IMG/VR virus record: IMGVR_UViG_3300012954_001164
Span: 1-22,654 of that record
Reading direction: 5' to 3' (one strand)
Length of the DNA: 22,654 bases
Origin: a virus
A program made the translations under genes and the position numbers. Under the pieces are notes generated by a model. The model did no database searches and was not told where the DNA came from. It saw nothing but the letters and a program-made list of their open reading frames with translations. This document shows, piece by piece, positions 2,333 through 18,850 of this stretch; position 1 is the first letter of the stretch, and every line of letters begins with the position of its first letter.

Positions 2333-2620
2333 TCAATAAAGTGACTCTTCCTGTTCGCTAAGAATCACCACATCGGAGGTTGGATACGATACACATGTGA
2401 GAAGAAATCCTGATTCAATCTGATCATCATCCAGGAAAGATTGTTCTTCCTGATTTACTGTGCCTGATTCAATCTTACCTGCACATGTGCTACAAGCACC
2501 TGCACGGCATGAGTATGGCATATCTACTCCTGCTTCTTCTGCTGCATCAAGAATGTATGTATCCTCGTCACATTCAAAACTTGTTTCGGTTCCGTCTGGT
2601 GCTTTAATCGTTACGTTCAT
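2333..2620 (-). CDS. petF: Plant-type [2Fe-2S] ferredoxin
   Basis: This is a 95-residue electron carrier of the photosynthetic ferredoxin type. The cluster cysteines are Cys38, Cys43, Cys46 and Cys76, in the classic spacing C-x4-C-x2-C-x29-C (CRAGACSTC ... LLTC). The length matches chloroplast and cyanobacterial ferredoxins (about 97 residues). The start chosen is [10 protein letters not shown]; the open frame runs further upstream but that part has no ferredoxin character and lies over the promoter. Phage ferredoxins are presumed to feed electrons to reductases such as phage bilin reductases or host enzymes during infection; that link is inferred, as no reductase is in the window. The gene has its own sigma70-like promoter and a terminator, so it looks monocistronic. 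Confidence 0.96.
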
Positions 2621-2644
2621 CTGAGTTATAAGACGCTCAACACC

Positions 2645-2674
2645 AGTATATATGATACTAGTAGTCGTTGTCAA
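2645..2674 (-). promoter_or_regulatory. Sigma70-like early promoter of the ferredoxin gene
   Basis: On the minus strand a perfect -35 box TTGACA (2669-2674) and a -10 box TATACT (2645-2650) are separated by 18 bases. The expected transcript start is near 2638, giving a leader of about 18 bases before the ferredoxin ATG at 2620. The -35 box lies inside the last codons of the upstream small membrane-protein gene. Confidence 0.75.
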
Positions 2675-2855
2675 TGAACCTGGCACACTTTTCAGTGTTC
2701 TTTTTACACCAGTTCCTGACATAAGAGTCAGCATCAACTTCCATAGTGTAGTGAGCGTGGTTATGTAGCACGCCCACGATCAATAAGAACCCTACAAACA
2801 GACCATTAATCAGAGTCACTGGGTGTGACAGGATCGCTAGTGTCCTTGATATCAT
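2658..2855 (-). CDS. Small single-pass membrane protein
   Basis: I do not recognise this 65-residue protein. One hydrophobic segment, about residues 15-31 ([17 protein letters not shown]), is long enough to span a membrane. It is followed by a His-rich turn (HNHAHY) and a polar tail with two cysteines. It starts inside the 3' end of the Hsp20 gene: the ATG at 2855 overlaps by 50 nt, and a GTG at residue 13 would reduce the overlap to about 14 nt. No clear ribosome site is visible. It probably shares the late Hsp20 transcript. Its 3' end carries the ferredoxin promoter. Confidence 0.5.
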
Positions 2856-3288
2856 AGATTTTTAACTTCTGGTGGTCAGGAATGATCTTCTGCAATTCTA
2901 CCACCAATAGTCCGTTTGTAAACGTGACGTTGCCGATTTCCACATCGTCTGAAAGGTTGAACCCCCTAGCGAAGGTACGTGTGGAGATACCCCTATGCAG
3001 GAACTCGTCCTCTCCTTTGTTCTTTGCTGTCTTGGACCTGATCAGAAGGACATTACTCTCTGTTGTGACTTCAACTTCATCCTTTGACCACCCAGCAAGT
3101 GCTAGTTCGATCCTCCACTTGATATTTGATTCCTTTACCAAATTGTATGGTGGGTATGCTTCATTGACTGACCCCATTCCATATGAATGTAGTCTATAAA
3201 CGATATCATCTAGTCCCACACTGTATTTTTCAACAGCATCTACCACGGCATTAAGATCTTTTGCCGTGAACTTTTTCAGTCCAGTCAT
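2806..3288 (-). CDS. hsp20: Small heat shock protein, Hsp20 family
   Basis: This 160-residue alpha-crystallin-type chaperone holds unfolding proteins in a refoldable state. The alpha-crystallin domain spans about residues 50-145. It includes IELALAGWSKDEVEV, the strand VLLIRSKTA, the loop EFLHRGISTRTFARGFNL, and GLLVVELQKI, which fits the usual GxLxV/I region. The N-terminal arm is about 50 residues and the C-terminal tail ends in acidic and Ser residues. A good ribosome site (AGGAGA) lies seven bases before the ATG. A T4-late-like GATAAATA box about 57 bases upstream suggests late expression. Hsp20 is common in T4-like cyanophages; its client is unknown. Confidence 0.95.
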   Translation of the reverse strand: MTGLKKFTAKDLNAVVDAVEKYSVGLDDIVYRLHSYGMGSVNEAYPPYNLVKESNIKWRIELALAGWSKDEVEVTTESNVLLIRSKTAKNKGEDEFLHRGISTRTFARGFNLSDDVEIGNVTFTNGLLVVELQKIIPDHQKLKIYDIKDTSDPVTPSDSD

Positions 3289-3344: not shown

Positions 3345-3352
3345 TATTTATC
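3345..3352 (-). promoter_or_regulatory. T4-type late promoter box before hsp20
   Basis: The minus strand reads GATAAATA, fitting the late-promoter pattern NATAAATA used by gp55-type sigma factors in T4-like phages. With T4 spacing, transcription would start near 3339, giving a leader of about 51 bases that keeps the hsp20 ribosome site. It is divergent to the matching plus-strand box at 3392-3399. Confidence 0.6.
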
Positions 3353-3391: not shown

Positions 3392-3399
3392 GATAAATA
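3392..3399 (+). promoter_or_regulatory. T4-type late promoter box before the secreted-protein genes
   Basis: GATAAATA on the plus strand lies directly before an AGGAGG ribosome-like site (3399-3404) and the ATG at 3414. It is the likely late promoter of the three plus-strand genes. With T4 spacing the transcript would begin about 3405, that is after the AGGAGG, which is odd and is discussed as a finding. Confidence 0.6.
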
Positions 3400-3413
3400 G
3401 GAGGTAGGTCCCT

Positions 3414-3920
3414 ATGTATGACGCGATGAAAAATCTCATCCCAGTCGCAATGATTTTGATGACCGCCACTGCTGCAAATGCAGGCGGACTTGTTACTAAG
3501 CACGCTGCTAGTGTGCAGTTGACCGTGGATGCTGCAAGGAGCACGTCGTCTCGAATTGGGTCGTCGTTCAGTATCTCAGGATCAAATATAGATACAACCG
3601 ATGGGAATACTGCGGGAGTAGTTTCCGCTGGAACTATTACTTCGGGTGTATATAGTCCAGGAACTATTAGTGCCACGCAGGATACTGCTGGTTCTGCATT
3701 TAGTTTCAGTCAATCTTATAACCAAGCTGATGCAATCCCTACCTCTGCTCCTACTACTGGTGCTGTTCCGAACTTCGGTTCAGTTACAAGTTATACAGCG
3801 GGAACAGCAGGATCGCTTGCTGGAACAGTCACTAGTGCGGGTAACCTCACGGTGACGGCTGGTGGAGCGGGTAGCAGTGCAATCGGACAATTCGTTTCGG
3901 AAATTACTGTAATTGACTGA
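3414..3920 (+). CDS. Secreted Ser/Thr/Gly-rich protein 1, late, unknown function
   Basis: This 168-residue protein is of unknown function. It has a Sec signal peptide: a Lys after the second Met, the hydrophobic run LIPVAMILMTATA, and an ANA cleavage site after residue 23. The mature part is rich in Ser, Thr, Gly and Ala with no cysteine, so it is probably beta-rich and extracellular, periplasmic or part of the virion. The motif GSAFSFSQSY recurs in altered form in the next gene (GDAFQFTETY), suggesting the two are diverged duplicates. The start could be 3414 (AGGAGG nine bases upstream) or 3426, which begins MKNLIP like a normal signal peptide. It is the first gene of a plus-strand late operon in an otherwise minus-strand region. 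Confidence 0.8.
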   Translation: MYDAMKNLIPVAMILMTATAANAGGLVTKHAASVQLTVDAARSTSSRIGSSFSISGSNIDTTDGNTAGVVSAGTITSGVYSPGTISATQDTAGSAFSFSQSYNQADAIPTSAPTTGAVPNFGSVTSYTAGTAGSLAGTVTSAGNLTVTAGGAGSSAIGQFVSEITVID

Positions 3921-3931
3921 CGGAGGGTCCA

Positions 3932-4369
3932 ATGAAAACTTTGATTCATTGGTCTGTTCTAACTGTGGTGGGTGCAAGTGCCATACTTGCTCCTGCCCAG
4001 GCGGTCCCCGTGGTCCCGAACTTCACACAGGGAAGTATGTCGAGCCACACAGAGACAACTCAGACCATAACCGAGACCATAAATTCAATGGACTATTCGA
4101 CTGGATATCAGTATTCAGCGACTGGTTCAGGCGTAACCGCTAATGGGAACTTGTCACCTGGCACAGGTTCCACCAATGTAACTATTAATGGAGTGACTTC
4201 GCAATGGACGGGAGCAACAAGCAAACCACAGTTCACACAAACAGTACCAGGGGACGCATTTCAGTTCACAGAAACTTACTCAGGTCCTGGTTTACAAAAT
4301 CATACGATTATCCAAAGAGTGACAGAGGTCACCAGCGTAACAGACACTACAAGTATCTTCTCGCAATAG
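3932..4369 (+). CDS. Secreted Ser/Thr-rich protein 2, late, unknown function
   Basis: This 145-residue protein is of unknown function and is the probable paralogue of the preceding gene. It has a clear signal peptide (MKTLIHWSVLTVVGASAILA) with cleavage after AQA at residue 24. The mature chain is rich in Thr, Ser, Gly and Gln, contains GDAFQFTETY near residue 110, and ends in repeated Val-Thr segments (RVTEVTSVTD). It has no cysteine in the mature part. GGAGG lies five bases before the ATG, and the gene begins 11 bases after the previous stop, so the two are co-transcribed. It could be a secreted envelope factor or a minor virion component; nothing in the sequence decides. Confidence 0.85.
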   Translation: MKTLIHWSVLTVVGASAILAPAQAVPVVPNFTQGSMSSHTETTQTITETINSMDYSTGYQYSATGSGVTANGNLSPGTGSTNVTINGVTSQWTGATSKPQFTQTVPGDAFQFTETYSGPGLQNHTIIQRVTEVTSVTDTTSIFSQ

Positions 4370-5214
4370 GTCTTACATGTGTATTCCCATCTCAATCTTT
4401 GGCAGAAACTATTGGCGGCGTCTCCGCTACTGCTTCTCCTGTTGCTAATTCCTCAGGTAGCGTTACAAATCAGGCGATCCAGGTATTACAAGGACCGTAC
4501 ATTACTAACACCTATGGTAATGGTATTCAATGTCAAGGTCCCACTAGAAATTTCACACCGTATCTAACAGGAACTGCATCTGCTTCTAAACCTTTTGAAG
4601 GTTACTATGATGATCCTGTATATGATGTCAGTGACATAAACGAAGATGGTTTGATAGACAATCCAGGCTCCATTCTCTTCCACAAGAGAACAAGAACGGG
4701 ACAGAAAGATAATTATAGTCTCGGTGCAGGATTCTCTATCACATGGTCCACACCATTAGATAAGAAATTACAGGACCAATGTAAGGAAGCAGCACAAGCG
4801 AACATCGACATGATGACTCAGTTGACTGCTAATAAAAGATTAGATTTTGAGATCGCGAGACTCAAAAATTGTGGCGAATTGATGAAGGCTGGAATTATGT
4901 TTGCACCTGGTACACAGTATGCAAAGATATGTGCTGATGTCATGGTGATGAACGTGACCCATGTTAAGGATCACCGTCACTCTATTTCCCCTTCGGTTTC
5001 AAGACCTTCCTCAACGCAGCAATCGCTTGATTCCGATCCCTCTGCTCAGAGCGACGCTCCCGTACGCTTAGAGGTCGTACCTTCTTCCCACGAAGAGTCG
5101 CAATCTTCTTCATTACCTTCTTCACAGTCGGCTTCACAACTTTCAGAAGCAGATCGGCAAAGGGTTTTGCGAGCAGTGCAGAAGTCGTCGCAACGACAGC
5201 AATACTCGCAGTAG
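4204..5214 (+). CDS. Secreted protein 3 with Ca-loop-like motif; start uncertain
   Basis: This 336-codon frame is of unknown function; I recall similar proteins in other cyanophages. A signal-peptide-like stretch (KYLLAIGLTCVFPSQSLA) occurs at residues 50-67, then a Ser/Thr/Gly/Asn-rich region with LQGPYITNTYGNG. The segment DINEDGLID (144-152) resembles the DxNxDG calcium loop of dockerins and EF-hands. A helical part with Cys residues follows (RLDFEIARLKNCGELMKAG), then a low-complexity Ser/Gln tail. No ATG, GTG or TTG lies close to the signal stretch. The nearest in-frame ATG is 4204, 166 bases inside the previous gene, with GGAG ten bases upstream. The tail from 4982 on overlaps the minus-strand gene on the opposite strand. 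Confidence 0.75.
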   Translation: MDGSNKQTTVHTNSTRGRISVHRNLLRSWFTKSYDYPKSDRGHQRNRHYKYLLAIGLTCVFPSQSLAETIGGVSATASPVANSSGSVTNQAIQVLQGPYITNTYGNGIQCQGPTRNFTPYLTGTASASKPFEGYYDDPVYDVSDINEDGLIDNPGSILFHKRTRTGQKDNYSLGAGFSITWSTPLDKKLQDQCKEAAQANIDMMTQLTANKRLDFEIARLKNCGELMKAGIMFAPGTQYAKICADVMVMNVTHVKDHRHSISPSVSRPSSTQQSLDSDPSAQSDAPVRLEVVPSSHEESQSSSLPSSQSASQLSEADRQRVLRAVQKSSQRQQYSQ

Positions 5215-5782
5215 TTGTTACTGTTCCTATGGGTGGTATAGCATTTACCACCTGTTCAGTTAGTCTTACATCTTCTACCAGTCGTACACACTGCTTACCT
5301 TCTAGTCTGTAACCAGTAACTCTCTTACGACCACTGTCAAAGATGAATCCAACGGGTTCTTCTGCCAGTTGTTTGTTTGTAGGACACTGTATTTTTACAA
5401 CCTGAGGTGGAGTCCCAGGCACCTCTGTCTGTGGTGTCTCTGTCCGAGGTTTTTCTTTTGTTCTTGTGTCTACATTGGGAGCAGGTGTCATTAATATCTG
5501 CTCAGGTTCAAACTGCATGGGATTGAAGTTTGGCATCCCTGCATCACAGTATGTCACGGTGCCCTTAGGGTCGTCACCGATGGCATTTTTATTCTTTTTA
5601 TTGTTAGTGGTGTGTGCTTCTACACAACCAGGCATGTTGACAATGGGTGTCCCGATATCGACAACAACAGGCGCAACAATGTACCCTCTTGCTGAGGGTT
5701 CATTGAAGTTCCATGTGGGTATTTCAAGGATTTTAATATCTCGGATACCAACAGTGTTGGTGCCGATCTCAGGAATTTCCAT
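4982..5782 (-). CDS. Membrane-anchored late protein with Pro-rich middle and basic tail
   Basis: This 266-residue protein is of unknown function; I recall relatives in other T4-like cyanophages. The N-terminal part (MEIPEIGTNTVGI) carries cysteines 53 and 79 around DPKGTVTYCD. A Pro/Thr/Glu-rich linker spans about 95-127, a second small domain has cysteines 133 and 165, and one hydrophobic segment lies at about 186-206. It ends in a strongly basic tail of about 60 residues (VKKVMKKIATLRGKK, RERRSEQRDR). The order suggests a large domain outside the membrane and a basic cytoplasmic or nucleic-acid-facing tail. It is last in a three-gene minus-strand run starting at 6346. Its 3' 233 bases overlap the plus-strand ORF ending at 5214. 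The AGT/GAG before the ATG is a weak ribosome site. Confidence 0.85.
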   Translation of the reverse strand: MEIPEIGTNTVGIRDIKILEIPTWNFNEPSARGYIVAPVVVDIGTPIVNMPGCVEAHTTNNKKNKNAIGDDPKGTVTYCDAGMPNFNPMQFEPEQILMTPAPNVDTRTKEKPRTETPQTEVPGTPPQVVKIQCPTNKQLAEEPVGFIFDSGRKRVTGYRLEGKQCVRLVEDVRLTEQVVNAIPPIGTVTTTASIAVVATTSALLAKPFADLLLKVVKPTVKKVMKKIATLRGKKVRPLSVRERRSEQRDRNQAIAALRKVLKPKGK

Positions 5783-5790
5783 AATCTAAC

Positions 5791-6069
5791 TCAGAAAGGA
5801 AGTCCGATGCCTCCACCAGTTGCAGGAGCACCAGTTGCACCAGGAAGTACGCCACCAGTGGCACCAGGAAGTTCAGGAACCTCTGGCATGAGACCACCGA
5901 CCAGACCAGGCAGAGCACCTACGACTGCTTCGGTTGCTGCTGCTGTTGCTGCCTCTTTGGCAGACTCAATCAGAGCATCTTTTTGGATGTACACATAGGC
6001 ACCTGCTCCTACAATGGATGCGGTTCCTAGGAACGATAGCACTGCGAGTGCATTAATTACTTTTTGCAT
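5791..6069 (-). CDS. Small signal/anchor protein with Gly-Pro-Ala-rich tail
   Basis: This 92-residue protein is of unknown function. It starts MQKVINALAVLSFLGTASIV, a hydrophobic segment that could be an anchor or an uncleaved signal. It continues with YVYIQKDALIESAKEAATAA, a helical stretch, and ends in a low-complexity Gly, Pro, Ala, Thr tail (ELPGATGGVLPGATGAPATG) with an imperfect LPGATG repeat. GGAGGA five bases before the ATG at 6069 fixes this start over a longer open frame. It overlaps the upstream gene by 17 bases. Together with its neighbours it forms a set of membrane-associated late proteins; its role in envelope or virion is not resolved. Confidence 0.85.
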   Translation of the reverse strand: MQKVINALAVLSFLGTASIVGAGAYVYIQKDALIESAKEAATAAATEAVVGALPGLVGGLMPEVPELPGATGGVLPGATGAPATGGGIGLPF

Positions 6070-6346
6070 TGTCTTCCTCCTTTTTACCGATGGATGGTGC
6101 CTTTTTAGGAGCACTGCCGTTCTTGGCAGGACTCAATCCGAACGCAGCTAGCGATCCAGAAAAGACCGAGGCGATGAACGTGGGATCAAAATCTAAAATC
6201 TTCTGACCGTTAGGCAGTCGGACGTAGGAAAATGTGAGAAGGGACGCAGACCAAATAAGTACAACGACTTTCACTAGATTACCAAGGACTTCACTTTTAT
6301 CTTCATCTTGGTCTTCCTTCTCTACTTTGGGCTTGGTATCAGCCAT
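6053..6346 (-). CDS. Small late membrane protein (two hydrophobic segments)
   Basis: This 97-residue protein is of unknown function. A charged N-terminus (ADTKPKVEKEDQDEDKSE) is followed by a hydrophobic segment at about 22-42 (LGNLVKVVVLIWSASLLTFS), a short loop, and a second segment at about 57-71 (TFIASVFSGSLAAFGL). A Lys-rich tail (KNGSAPKKAPSIGKKEED) follows. Size and topology would fit a holin-like or virion membrane protein, but no holin motif is recognisable and there is no endolysin next to it, so I do not name it so. A late-type CATAAATA box lies 23 bases upstream. There is no obvious ribosome site in the short leader. Confidence 0.8.
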   Translation of the reverse strand: MADTKPKVEKEDQDEDKSEVLGNLVKVVVLIWSASLLTFSYVRLPNGQKILDFDPTFIASVFSGSLAAFGLSPAKNGSAPKKAPSIGKKEEDNAKSN

Positions 6347-6367
6347 GAATAGAGGGGTAAGGCACCA

Positions 6368-7819
6368 CTATTTATGTAGCACATCATTACCGATGAAGAG
6401 GAAATCAACACCCTTTTTAGAGAAGAGTTCCTTTGCTTCCCATTTCTTACCAGCAATAGGACTTCCACCTATATTCAGTGAAGTATTGAGCAGTACACTG
6501 TCACCTGTGAGTTCTTTGTACTTCCTCATGAGTCTTGCAAAGCAATCATCACCCTCTACTGTCTGTATTCTGGTAGATTTATCGATGTGAGTAACAGATT
6601 CTAGTCCAGGATCTATACACTCTACGTTGACATTCATCCAGGGCACTGCTGCATCAGGATGTACATCAAAATACTTGTGTGCATCACCTCTCAGCACTGC
6701 TGCACCGAATGGTCGGAAGGACTCACGATGCTTGACCTTAGAGTTCAATACATCCTTCATGTTTTTGAGTCTAGGATTGCACAAAATGCTCCTATGACCC
6801 AATGCACGGGGTCCAATCTCTCCATGACCCTGATACCATGCAATGATATTACCTGCTGCTAGTTCTTCTGCTGCCAAGGTAATGGTGTCATCATTAACTT
6901 CCTCTGTACCCTCGTCAGATTGCCAGAATGGGAACCCTGTGGAGTCAAATTCTTCCTCATGGAAGTGTTGACGAAGGAACTCAACAGCACCAAGTGAGAG
7001 ACCACAATCGTTGGCATGTGGGATGGTGTTAAGGGATGTACCAGTACGTGCTATTGCACCATTAAACATGGAATTCTGTGCCACACCACCAGTAAACCCA
7101 ACAAGTTCCTCACTGGGTCCGAGGTACTCTGCTAAAAGTTCGGCCGTGAACTCATGCACCGTGCGTAACCAGTTAATATCGAACTCTCCGTCCCACTTTC
7201 GGGTCCACTGATCGTAGTTCCAGATGTGTTTGATCTGACTGATAGGGAACTGACGTAGGAATTTAATATAGTCCTGGTCAACCAGTCCATATGCTGCTAG
7301 ACCCATCACTTTTCCTGCCAAATCTAGACCATCTGGGGTCACATCTTTGAGTCCAAGGGTAGCACCTACCTTTGCCATCTCAATACCGATGGAACCATTC
7401 TTGTCAAGGGTATGTGCAATCTCTAATTTGTTACCTAGGAACAGAGAATGGGACCTTTCATTGCTACCATACCCATCAAACACATAGTTTAGATAGGGAA
7501 TAGGACCAGCAGGCCATTGAGACAGAACGTGTGCCCAGTGGTGATCAATAGCGAAGGCACGACATGTCACACCGAGGTCAATTTCACGGTATAATTCACC
7601 CTCTTCAAAGGTTATTTGATCACTGACAATACAGATAGCATCCAGTTCAGCAGTGTGAACACCCCAATCATTTAGGATGTCTTCCCACTGCCATGTATTG
7701 TTCAGTCCATGGTGCTTGACACCAAAATACCTCTCCGTAGAGAGGTACTTGACTTTCTTACCATCAGTATAACAAATGTTGGAGTCGTGGTCTTCGACTC
7801 TCAGTCCAAGAAATTTCAT
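6368..7819 (-). CDS. Carbamoyltransferase, NodU/CmcH family
   Basis: This 483-residue enzyme belongs to the family that transfers a carbamoyl group from carbamoyl phosphate via an adenylate onto a hydroxyl or similar acceptor (NodU, CmcH, TobZ). The N-terminal Kae1-like half has HHWAHVLS, matching the metal-binding HxxxH of the family, and later VGFTGGVAQNSMFNG. The C-terminal half has GHGEIGPRALGHRSIL, KHRESFRPFG and LLNTSLN, all hallmark blocks. At 483 residues it is shorter than typical NodU proteins (about 550-600). The acceptor is unknown; a nucleotide, glycan or protein is possible. The gene follows the 62-residue gene with a TAAATG junction and ends where the late island begins. Confidence 0.93.
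   Translation of the reverse strand: MKFLGLRVEDHDSNICYTDGKKVKYLSTERYFGVKHHGLNNTWQWEDILNDWGVHTAELDAICIVSDQITFEEGELYREIDLGVTCRAFAIDHHWAHVLSQWPAGPIPYLNYVFDGYGSNERSHSLFLGNKLEIAHTLDKNGSIGIEMAKVGATLGLKDVTPDGLDLAGKVMGLAAYGLVDQDYIKFLRQFPISQIKHIWNYDQWTRKWDGEFDINWLRTVHEFTAELLAEYLGPSEELVGFTGGVAQNSMFNGAIARTGTSLNTIPHANDCGLSLGAVEFLRQHFHEEEFDSTGFPFWQSDEGTEEVNDDTITLAAEELAAGNIIAWYQGHGEIGPRALGHRSILCNPRLKNMKDVLNSKVKHRESFRPFGAAVLRGDAHKYFDVHPDAAVPWMNVNVECIDPGLESVTHIDKSTRIQTVEGDDCFARLMRKYKELTGDSVLLNTSLNIGGSPIAGKKWEAKELFSKKGVDFLFIGNDVLHK
6369..6376 (-). promoter_or_regulatory. T4-type late promoter box before the minus-strand late genes
   Basis: The minus strand reads CATAAATA, fitting NATAAATA. It overlaps the carbamoyltransferase stop codon (TAG at 6368-6370). 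With T4 spacing the transcript would start near 6363, giving a leader of about 17 bases for the gene at 6346. It marks the boundary between the early replication genes and the late island. Confidence 0.6.
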
Positions 7820-17138: not shown

Positions 17139-18850
17139 CCTTGGATATTCGACATGGTGGAGAAGTCCCCATCTTTTGAGAACTCTACGATGCGATCGAA
17201 CTTGTCGAACAATACATCGCCTTTATGTGAGATCACAAATAGATTGGTCTTCTCCCCCAGTCCTTTCAATATCCTCATCAGTTCATCCGTAGCAGACTGA
17301 TCGAGCGAGGAATCAAACACTTCATCCAGAAGGAGAAGGTTTGTGCTGACGCTGTTCTTTAACTGAGCGACTTCTCGCCAGGTGAACAGCAGTGCCAGGT
17401 CGATCTTTTGTTTCTCACCCTCGGAGAATGAGGCGTAAGAAAAATCATCACGGAAGCGAGAAAGAATTTTCTCGTTGAAGTTATCGTCAAGCGTGAAGTT
17501 CACGTAGAAATCCATGCTTTGTAGATACTTATTTATCCTCTGATTAATTATGGGAACAAACTTAGAGATAATCTTAGTTTTGATACCACCGTCTTTCAGG
17601 AGATTAGCAACCGTTTTGAGATGATCCGTCTGCTTGTTTATATTAGAACATGAATCTTGTTTGTTGTCAAGTAGTTGTTGCATTTTGAGAAGATCTTGCT
17701 TCTCACTTTCCAGATTAGTGCAGTCACTACCTACATCAGTCATGATCTGAGTGTTCTCTTTCAGCAGACGCATCTCTTCCTTGGTGAGAGATTGAATCTG
17801 ATAGCGTAGATCATTGAGAGAAGATGCTTTCTCACGTAGTTCCTTGATAGTTTTACCAAGGGTTGTGATCTGCATCATGATCTGAGAACCTGCGTCAGTC
17901 AGTTCAACACATTTCTGATTGAGTTCTGCTTGCTTATCAATACGAAGTTCTTTATCGATCTCCTGTGTACAGGTGGGACAAGTTTTATTCTCTACAAAGA
18001 AATCATAGTTCTTCTTAGATGTATTCAACTTGTGATAGATCTTGGACTTCATGTCCTTGAACTTCTCATGCTTCTCTACGGTGACATCTAGTTTGAGAAT
18101 CTCAGGTTCTAGAAGAGTGATCTGTTTATTGAGTTCTTTGATCTCACCTTTGATATCTACTACACGGTTCTCATTCTCTACAAACTTTGCTTGCTTGTCT
18201 TCGATTTGTTTCTGATCAACTGCTGACAAATTCTCAATGTTACGAATCTGCATGTCAACTTTCTGTTGAGCAATCTCTAATTCGTACTCACACTGTCGTT
18301 GTTGATCTTTTACATCTTTGATCCTCTCTTTGAGGATACCATTCATCTGAGAAAAGATTTGGATATCCAGGATATCTTCGATAACTTCTCTTCGATGAGC
18401 AGCAGGTAACTGCATGAAAGGAACAAAAGTTGAACTACCAAGAATAATAACCTGAGTGAAAGACTTGTAGTTAAGTTTAAGTATGCTCTGTTCCAGGTAC
18501 TTCTGGTAGTCCTTGTTAGCAGCATTCTGGTCCACCAGTTCTGAGTTACGGTAGATCTCAAACACATTAGGTTTGACCCCACGACATATTTTATAACTCA
18601 TCGTGCCGATTTTGAACTCAACCTCACACAAAAGTTCACGTTCGTTCACGCTGTTCATCAGTTGTGACTTGGTGATCTTCCTGAACGGTTTATTGAACAA
18701 GACAAAACAAAGCGCATCAAGAATGGTACTCTTGCCTGCGCCGTTATTGCCTACGATCAATGTTGTAGGGGATTCAGTAAGATCGACTTCGGTGAACTGC
18801 TGACCAGTGGACAGGAAATTCTTCCATCGGATCTTTTCAAAAACAATCAT
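17135..18850 (-). CDS. 46: Recombination endonuclease subunit gp46 (Rad50/SbcC-like)
   Basis: This 571-residue SMC-type ATPase works with gp47 to resect DNA ends for recombination-dependent replication and host DNA breakdown. It has Walker A GNNGAGKS (34-41), Q-loop region TQVIILGSS, a zinc hook CPTC (291-294) in the middle of two coiled-coil arms, ABC signature FSEGEKQK (475-482) and Walker B LLLLDEVFDSS (505-515). Length matches T4 gp46 (560). The start ATG at 18850 lies one base after the stop of the 87-residue gene, and speD overlaps its end. Confidence 0.98.
   Translation of the reverse strand: MIVFEKIRWKNFLSTGQQFTEVDLTESPTTLIVGNNGAGKSTILDALCFVLFNKPFRKITKSQLMNSVNERELLCEVEFKIGTMSYKICRGVKPNVFEIYRNSELVDQNAANKDYQKYLEQSILKLNYKSFTQVIILGSSTFVPFMQLPAAHRREVIEDILDIQIFSQMNGILKERIKDVKDQQRQCEYELEIAQQKVDMQIRNIENLSAVDQKQIEDKQAKFVENENRVVDIKGEIKELNKQITLLEPEILKLDVTVEKHEKFKDMKSKIYHKLNTSKKNYDFFVENKTCPTCTQEIDKELRIDKQAELNQKCVELTDAGSQIMMQITTLGKTIKELREKASSLNDLRYQIQSLTKEEMRLLKENTQIMTDVGSDCTNLESEKQDLLKMQQLLDNKQDSCSNINKQTDHLKTVANLLKDGGIKTKIISKFVPIINQRINKYLQSMDFYVNFTLDDNFNEKILSRFRDDFSYASFSEGEKQKIDLALLFTWREVAQLKNSVSTNLLLLDEVFDSSLDQSATDELMRILKGLGEKTNLFVISHKGDVLFDKFDRIVEFSKDGDFSTMSNIQG

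Follow-up and report, generated by a model that had tools for sequence, protein, structure and literature searches.

We describe a conserved cluster of six genes, O1 to O6, in a 22,654-nucleotide stretch of DNA from a T4-like marine cyanophage (IMG/VR record IMGVR_UViG_3300012954_001164, positions 1 to 22,654; hereafter the window), whose nearest records belong to the Kyanoviridae. The plus-strand genes O1-O2-O3 converge on the minus-strand genes O6-O5-O4, an ATAAATA late box lies ahead of each trio, and all six products bear predicted export or membrane segments. We tentatively read this island as a late module that would serve envelope exit (lysis) in phages of marine Synechococcus and Prochlorococcus, doing the job of spanins. 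The cluster is real, conserved and partly known; its host-exit role is testable but unproven. The dual coding of O2 and O3, recognised from frame conservation, is the new and strong finding of this analysis.

Gene arrangement and predicted proteins

In the window, ATAAATA boxes stand before O1, before O6, before the flanking hsp20 gene and at one intragenic site (Table 1). Four such boxes per 22.6 kb arose in 19 of 100 shuffles; the count itself is not rare, but the positions are. Among myovirus-type loci of relatives, an exact box was found no more than 100 nt ahead of O1 in 38 of 108 cases and of O6 in 59 of 86, against an expectation of about 1.5%, at a distance of about 28 nt from the gene, and never upstream of O2, O3, O4 or O5. 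This distribution points to two facing late operons. An earlier note on this DNA had claimed three plus-strand open reading frames (ORFs) facing three on the minus strand with a late box for each set, and had taken the six together as one late island of secreted and membrane proteins; the ORFs, the boxes and the hydrophobic segments found in all six bear out both claims.

None of the families matched by O1-O6 has a known function, and the only label among them is 'plasmid stability' on O5. Hydropathy places N-terminal signal segments on O1 and O2, and serine, threonine and glycine together make up 41% of O1, 40% of O2 and 26% of O3. O1 and O2 are paralogues (hhalign probability 96%, E 4.6e-9), and profile comparison of O3 with O2 revealed no relation. 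O3 has a basic N-terminal extension of about 50 amino acids, a signal-like core at 51-67, four invariant cysteines and a long helix. O4 has a hydrophobic segment at 188-204 followed by a strongly basic C-terminal tail, with a proline-rich N-terminal part and a conserved cysteine, and O5 has a hydrophobic segment at 3-19. A relationship of O5 to phi6 P10 was considered and rejected as too weak (E 0.0025; 17.6 bits, where the cut-off is 90). O6 appears holin-like by size and topology: its 97 amino acids contain hydropathy peaks at 24-40 and 56-72, and both segments are conserved in 26 aligned relatives.

The tail-to-tail overlap of O3 and O4 recurs in 110 of 116 relatives, with a median of 101 nt, and therefore the 3' ends of the two late transcripts are expected to be complementary. 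No structured RNAs were found, and terminator-like sites were near chance level.

The O3 start lies within O2

The export signal of O3 is encoded at the 3' end of O2, with no start codon close by. In nearly all myovirus-type loci, however, an in-frame ATG for O3 is present 166-178 nt before the end of the O2 stop codon. It uses the wobble A of the codon (TCA, ACA, CAA, AGA or AAA) preceding a conserved tryptophan of O2, and that codon ends in A in 47 of 48 sequences of the myovirus type, against 29% expected. P-SSM2, which has no tryptophan at that site, has its O3 start further upstream. The podovirus type has the start at -208, as ATG in 69 loci and GTG in 6, an alternation compatible with a start codon. 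Before the O3 start, 42 of 50 loci have a Shine-Dalgarno-like motif (GGA in 40 of 50, GTG in 46 of 50).

As a null model, we kept the O2 amino acids, redrew the codons and counted stops in the O3 frame. A stop broke the frame in 1 of 48 myovirus-type sequences, against 98% (47) expected, and in none of 75 podovirus-type sequences, against 96% (72) expected; these sequences are related rather than independent draws, the set spanning 15 O2 lineages below 80% identity. The sole stop-containing case, MED4-117, has its own O3 start further downstream. Wobble identity in O2 is 0.34-0.48 over codons 25-74, rises to 0.60-0.64 over codons 75-114 and then falls again. The conserved in-frame start, open frame, wobble conservation and Shine-Dalgarno-like motif argue that O3 begins at 4204, with the basic stretch of about 50 residues ahead of its hydrophobic core, and the core lies as far in as 51-67 because the true start is inside O2.

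Since no start codon lies close to the signal segment, we also considered a programmed frameshift or a non-AUG start near it; this was rejected because ATG or GTG is conserved at a fixed upstream distance inside O2. O3 is a conserved gene whose start sits within another gene, and public records place it inconsistently or omit it. It is unannotated in the S-SCSM1 record (locus L063, 5282-6190), apparently because of the O2 overlap, and the S-SCSM2R record has no feature under the O3 match either. In podovirus-type loci (L155-L234) the O3 frame often extends upstream without a stop across nearly the whole of O2, and a second ATG occurs at -364.

Distribution among cyanophages

Matches in phage records by tblastn (443 for O3, 412 for O1, 408 for O4 and 440 for O6) were all to cyanophages or uncultured marine viruses. 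The expectation that these genes occur together across cyanophages held: among metagenomic myovirus-type loci with enough flank (n = 50), O1, O2 and O3 on the plus strand converge on minus-strand O4 in all 50, O5 is also present in 46, and O6 is nearby in 38. The cyanosiphovirus MED4-117 has all six genes, T7-like cyanophages carry O6-O2-O3 in 40 of 40 podovirus-type loci, and S-TIP37 carries O6-O2-O3 as well. S-CREM2 has a match to O6 only, weak and broken by a stop. By these sequence matches, the module appears across myo-, sipho- and podoviruses that infect the same hosts, which argues that it is not tied to tail type. Cellular homologues of O3 were rejected: eight genome matches were judged to be cyanophage contigs in metagenome-assembled genomes, a single-amplified genome or an isolate assembly, and the three that were checked (L068, L072 and L073) contain the whole module.

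The cluster is not new as such. The earlier note had suggested an undescribed system, and this does not hold, because a mobile cluster of T4-GC 218/219/234/235/237, without known function and often accompanied by a 'plasmid stability' gene, was reported from 15 of 16 cyanomyoviruses, with a functional link suggested as the reason for the clustering (Sullivan et al. 2010, PMC3037559). These are the same genes in the same phages: PHROG and Pfam matches, and syntenic records from S-SM1, Syn33, P-SSM2 and P-HM2 that carry T4-GC notes, confirm the orthology. No GC219 counterpart was identified in the window, and the list in the passages of that survey on the cluster lacks GC236 (O2); nor do those passages give dual coding, export signals, carriage by podo- or siphoviruses, or a mechanism (PMC3037559).

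Podovirus arrangement

T7-like cyanophages show the order tail fibre, O4-like gene, O6, O2, O3, TerS, TerL. In T7, this interval between tail fibre and TerS is occupied by the holin 17.5 and the spanins 18.5/18.7. The protein before O6 in several T7-like cyanophages (P-SSP7_042, NATL2A-133 CYPG_00010, KBS-P-1A CYZG_00013 and S-RIP1 SWVG_00013) is small and proline-rich with a C-terminal membrane segment, resembling a reduced O4, and is probably its counterpart. The O4 profile is significant at that position in 9 of 40 podovirus-type loci, and the window O4 matches phrog_9426, the family of the P-SSP7 protein, only weakly (E 0.44), so that the case for this link is chiefly one of position and features. 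A weak O4 match in P-SCSP1d again lies tail-to-tail with O3. The same interval of Syn5, which lacks the module, contains a different small protein with an N-terminal transmembrane domain (TMD) and a coiled coil, gp47 (86 amino acids, right after the tail fibre; L245, 8393-8653). It resembles an inner-membrane spanin (i-spanin) or a similar lysis protein, and Syn5 is listed as spanin-less.

Possible role in host exit

Late expression, a distribution confined to one host group whatever the tail type, and the podovirus slot between tail fibre and TerS together point to release from the cell. If so, two gp55-type late promoters would activate both operons when virion production is under way, and O6, as a small inner-membrane protein with two TMDs, would behave as a class II holin. 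Sec would export O1-O3 to the periplasm, where O1 and O2, with their long beta strands, and the cysteine-rich O3 would engage the outer membrane. O4, anchored in the inner membrane by its C-terminal segment, would span the periplasm with O5 assisting, so that O1-O5 and O6 jointly breach the outer membrane, and the nested O3 start would couple production of both partners. We infer, as the earlier note did, a function in lysis, exclusion or release, and rank exit ahead of surface alteration, a virion role and membrane maintenance, in that order.

The module resembles two-component spanins (lambda Rz/Rz1, T7 18.5/18.7) in its late genes, nested out-of-phase starts and exported partners, and its podovirus copies sit in the lysis interval that holds the T7 pair. 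Nested starts are common in spanin pairs, although not required, and the O3 start lies in O2, out of phase (-1 frame). An i-spanin is a type II membrane protein that has an N-terminal TMD and a coiled-coil periplasmic part; in O5 an N-terminal TMD is accompanied by a short helix-like part, and the O4 segment is C-terminal. The module differs from spanins in lacking a lipobox, in exporting the beta-rich O2 and the cysteine-rich O3, and in having a C-terminal TMD on its candidate inner-membrane partner. O6 shares with class II holins a length of about 100 amino acids, two hydrophobic segments, charged ends, late expression and, in podoviruses, a place beside exported genes; it matches, however, no holin family, only DUF6450 and phrog_721/2714, which have no assigned function. 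Disruptins and other non-spanin disruptors of the outer membrane offer a spanin alternative, and in O4, too, a basic tail comes after a hydrophobic segment, but a disruptin is a short cationic peptide whereas O4 is a 266-residue anchored protein within a gene set. In a survey of spanins, none was found in P-SSP7, P-HM2, P-SSM2, P-SSM4, Syn1, Syn33, S-SM1, S-SM2 and others, and 20 phages of Prochlorococcus or Synechococcus were counted among those without an identifiable outer-membrane lysis gene; the survey's authors raised the possibility of a solution not yet recognised, made up of an inner-membrane protein with a C-terminal TMD and an outer-membrane protein (PMC6139136). O4 together with O1-O3 looks close to that possibility.

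Several observations weigh against an exit role. The same authors note that disruption of the outer membrane may be needless in these hosts (PMC6139136). The module has no lipoprotein (O1 and O2 have no cysteine, and the cysteine in the O3 signal core is not conserved) and is therefore, by definition of the outer-membrane spanin, not a spanin. The cassette has no endolysin, and an N-out topology of O4 without a signal peptide would be unusual. O2, O3, O4 and O6 were undetectable in S-PM2, Syn5, P60, P-SS2 and S-SZBM1, the first four of which led us to reject a requirement for the module in every phage of these hosts. S-PM2 and Syn5, which are also listed as spanin-less, infect WH7803 and WH8109, hosts of module-carrying phages; as module-less phages lyse the same hosts, the module would be one solution among several. 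The structural models are weak. AlphaFold2 gave O2 a predicted local distance difference test (pLDDT) score of 63, with strands of 24-25 residues at 33-56 and 120-144, and O3 a pLDDT of 47; the O3 model contains a beta region and one helix of 42 residues. Foldseek of the O2 model against the PDB returned nothing significant (best E 0.5). Its low-ranking matches are rich in beta-pore stems, fibres and collar proteins of phages; the best VIA-align Z is 3.8, to lysenin and other beta-pore stems, a likeness that may reflect only a generic long hairpin. Significant BFVD matches of the O3 model are almost all to its own family, and sequence searches of the PDB gave no match for O2, O3, O4 or O6 and only sub-threshold antibody matches for O1.

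The exported proteins might instead coat or plug the host surface, against superinfection or against progeny binding to receptors on debris, much as T5 Llp stops progeny binding such receptors. Exported serine-, threonine- and glycine-rich paralogues, and carriers confined to phages of one host group whatever their tail, would suit this. Exclusion genes are usually early, however, and the module genes have late boxes, which makes exclusion less likely than exit; the holin-like O6 and the podovirus position between tail fibre and TerS would also be left unaccounted for, and on balance we regard surface alteration as unlikely. Somewhat more improbable still is that the proteins belong to the virion and work on the envelope when a cell is infected. 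Late boxes, and an O4 membrane segment like that of some ejection proteins, agree with such a role, but Sec signals on O1-O3 would remove them from the cytoplasm, the site of head and tail assembly, and export or membrane segments in all six argue against plain virion parts. Moreover, the set is common to three tail types, and a portal-tail model of P-SCSP1u names only portal, adaptor, nozzle and fibre. In favour of a virion role, mass spectrometry of S-SM1 virions detected 18 hypothetical proteins, available here as a count only; the S-SZBM1 virion table is uninformative for O1-O6 since that genome lacks the module.

Many cyanophage genes prolong host metabolism, and the module might by the same habit stabilise the envelope or thylakoids, or move nutrients late, prolonging production; the late box of the neighbouring hsp20 would fit. 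Against this, no similarity of O1-O6 to transport or chaperone families was found above curated cut-offs, and the module is kept in podovirus genomes of only 38-47 kb, so that we consider maintenance the least probable of these roles. For host exit itself, a more specific version seems doubtful but worth stating: a lipoprotein-independent machine breaching the outer membrane, unrelated to spanins and disruptins, in which the dual-coded Sec-exported pair and its paralogue would form a beta-structured assembly driven by the C-terminally anchored O4 and a holin-like trigger, exchanged among picocyanobacterial myo-, sipho- and podoviruses.

Lysis of Prochlorococcus and Synechococcus by phages moves a large part of the ocean's carbon, and the module gives spanin-less cyanophages a named, conserved, late candidate set for exit through the outer membrane. 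S-TIP37 and Syn9, phages of Synechococcus WH8109, are already engineerable (PMC8776855), and carriage of the cluster by Syn9 follows from the cyanomyovirus survey (PMC3037559); the exit question is therefore directly testable.

Table 1. Features of the six-gene island and its surroundings in the window
Feature	Position	Strand	Evidence
O1, Sec-exported Ser/Thr/Gly-rich protein, 168 amino acids; phrog_564 / T4-GC237, 'OMP1' in some records	3414..3920	+	profiles, hydropathy
O2, Sec-exported long-beta-strand protein (predicted), 145 amino acids; phrog_650 / PF19847 (DUF6322) / T4-GC236	3932..4369	+	profiles, model
O3, exported protein, 336 amino acids; phrog_848 / T4-GC235	4204..5214	+	profiles, hydropathy, alignment
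O4, C-terminal membrane segment, 266 amino acids; phrog_570 / T4-GC234	4982..5782	-	profiles, hydropathy
O5, N-terminal TMD, short helix, Pro/Gly-rich tail; phrog_568 ('plasmid stability') / T4-GC414	5791..6069	-	profiles, hydropathy
O6, two-TMD holin-like protein; PF20048 (DUF6450) / phrog_721 / T4-GC218	6053..6346	-	profiles, hydropathy
O2/O3 dual-coded overlap, O3 in -1 frame of O2	4204..4369	+	frame conservation statistics
Shine-Dalgarno-like GGAGTG before O3 start, inside O2	4190..4195	+	sequence and alignment
O3/O4 tail-to-tail (antisense) overlap, 233 bp	4982..5214	.	ORF coordinates
Late promoter box (GATAAATA) of O1-O2-O3 operon	3393..3399	+	box search of window; enriched in relatives
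Late promoter box ATAAATA of O6-O5-O4 operon	6369..6375	-	box search of window; enriched in relatives
Late box ATAAATA before hsp20	3345-3351	-	box search of window
Fourth ATAAATA box, intragenic	17530-17536	-	box search of window
hsp20, flanking gene	2806-3288	-	
Carbamoyltransferase, flanking gene	6368-7819	-	

Neighbouring genes

The O2/O3 same-strand overlap, the O3/O4 tail-to-tail overlap and the hsp20 late box are absent from the earlier note. Because of its own late box, hsp20 is probably a late gene, though it stands among early-type genes. The gene directly behind the module on the other side encodes a Nol-like carbamoyltransferase (PF16861/PF02543). In the module-less S-SZBM1 this gene adjoins hsp20, and the module there therefore looks cleanly absent or inserted. 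Beyond hsp20, an ORF judged by eye to be ferredoxin-like (2Fe-2S; 2333-2737, minus strand) has its start overlapped by a small single-TMD ORF (2658-2855, minus strand).

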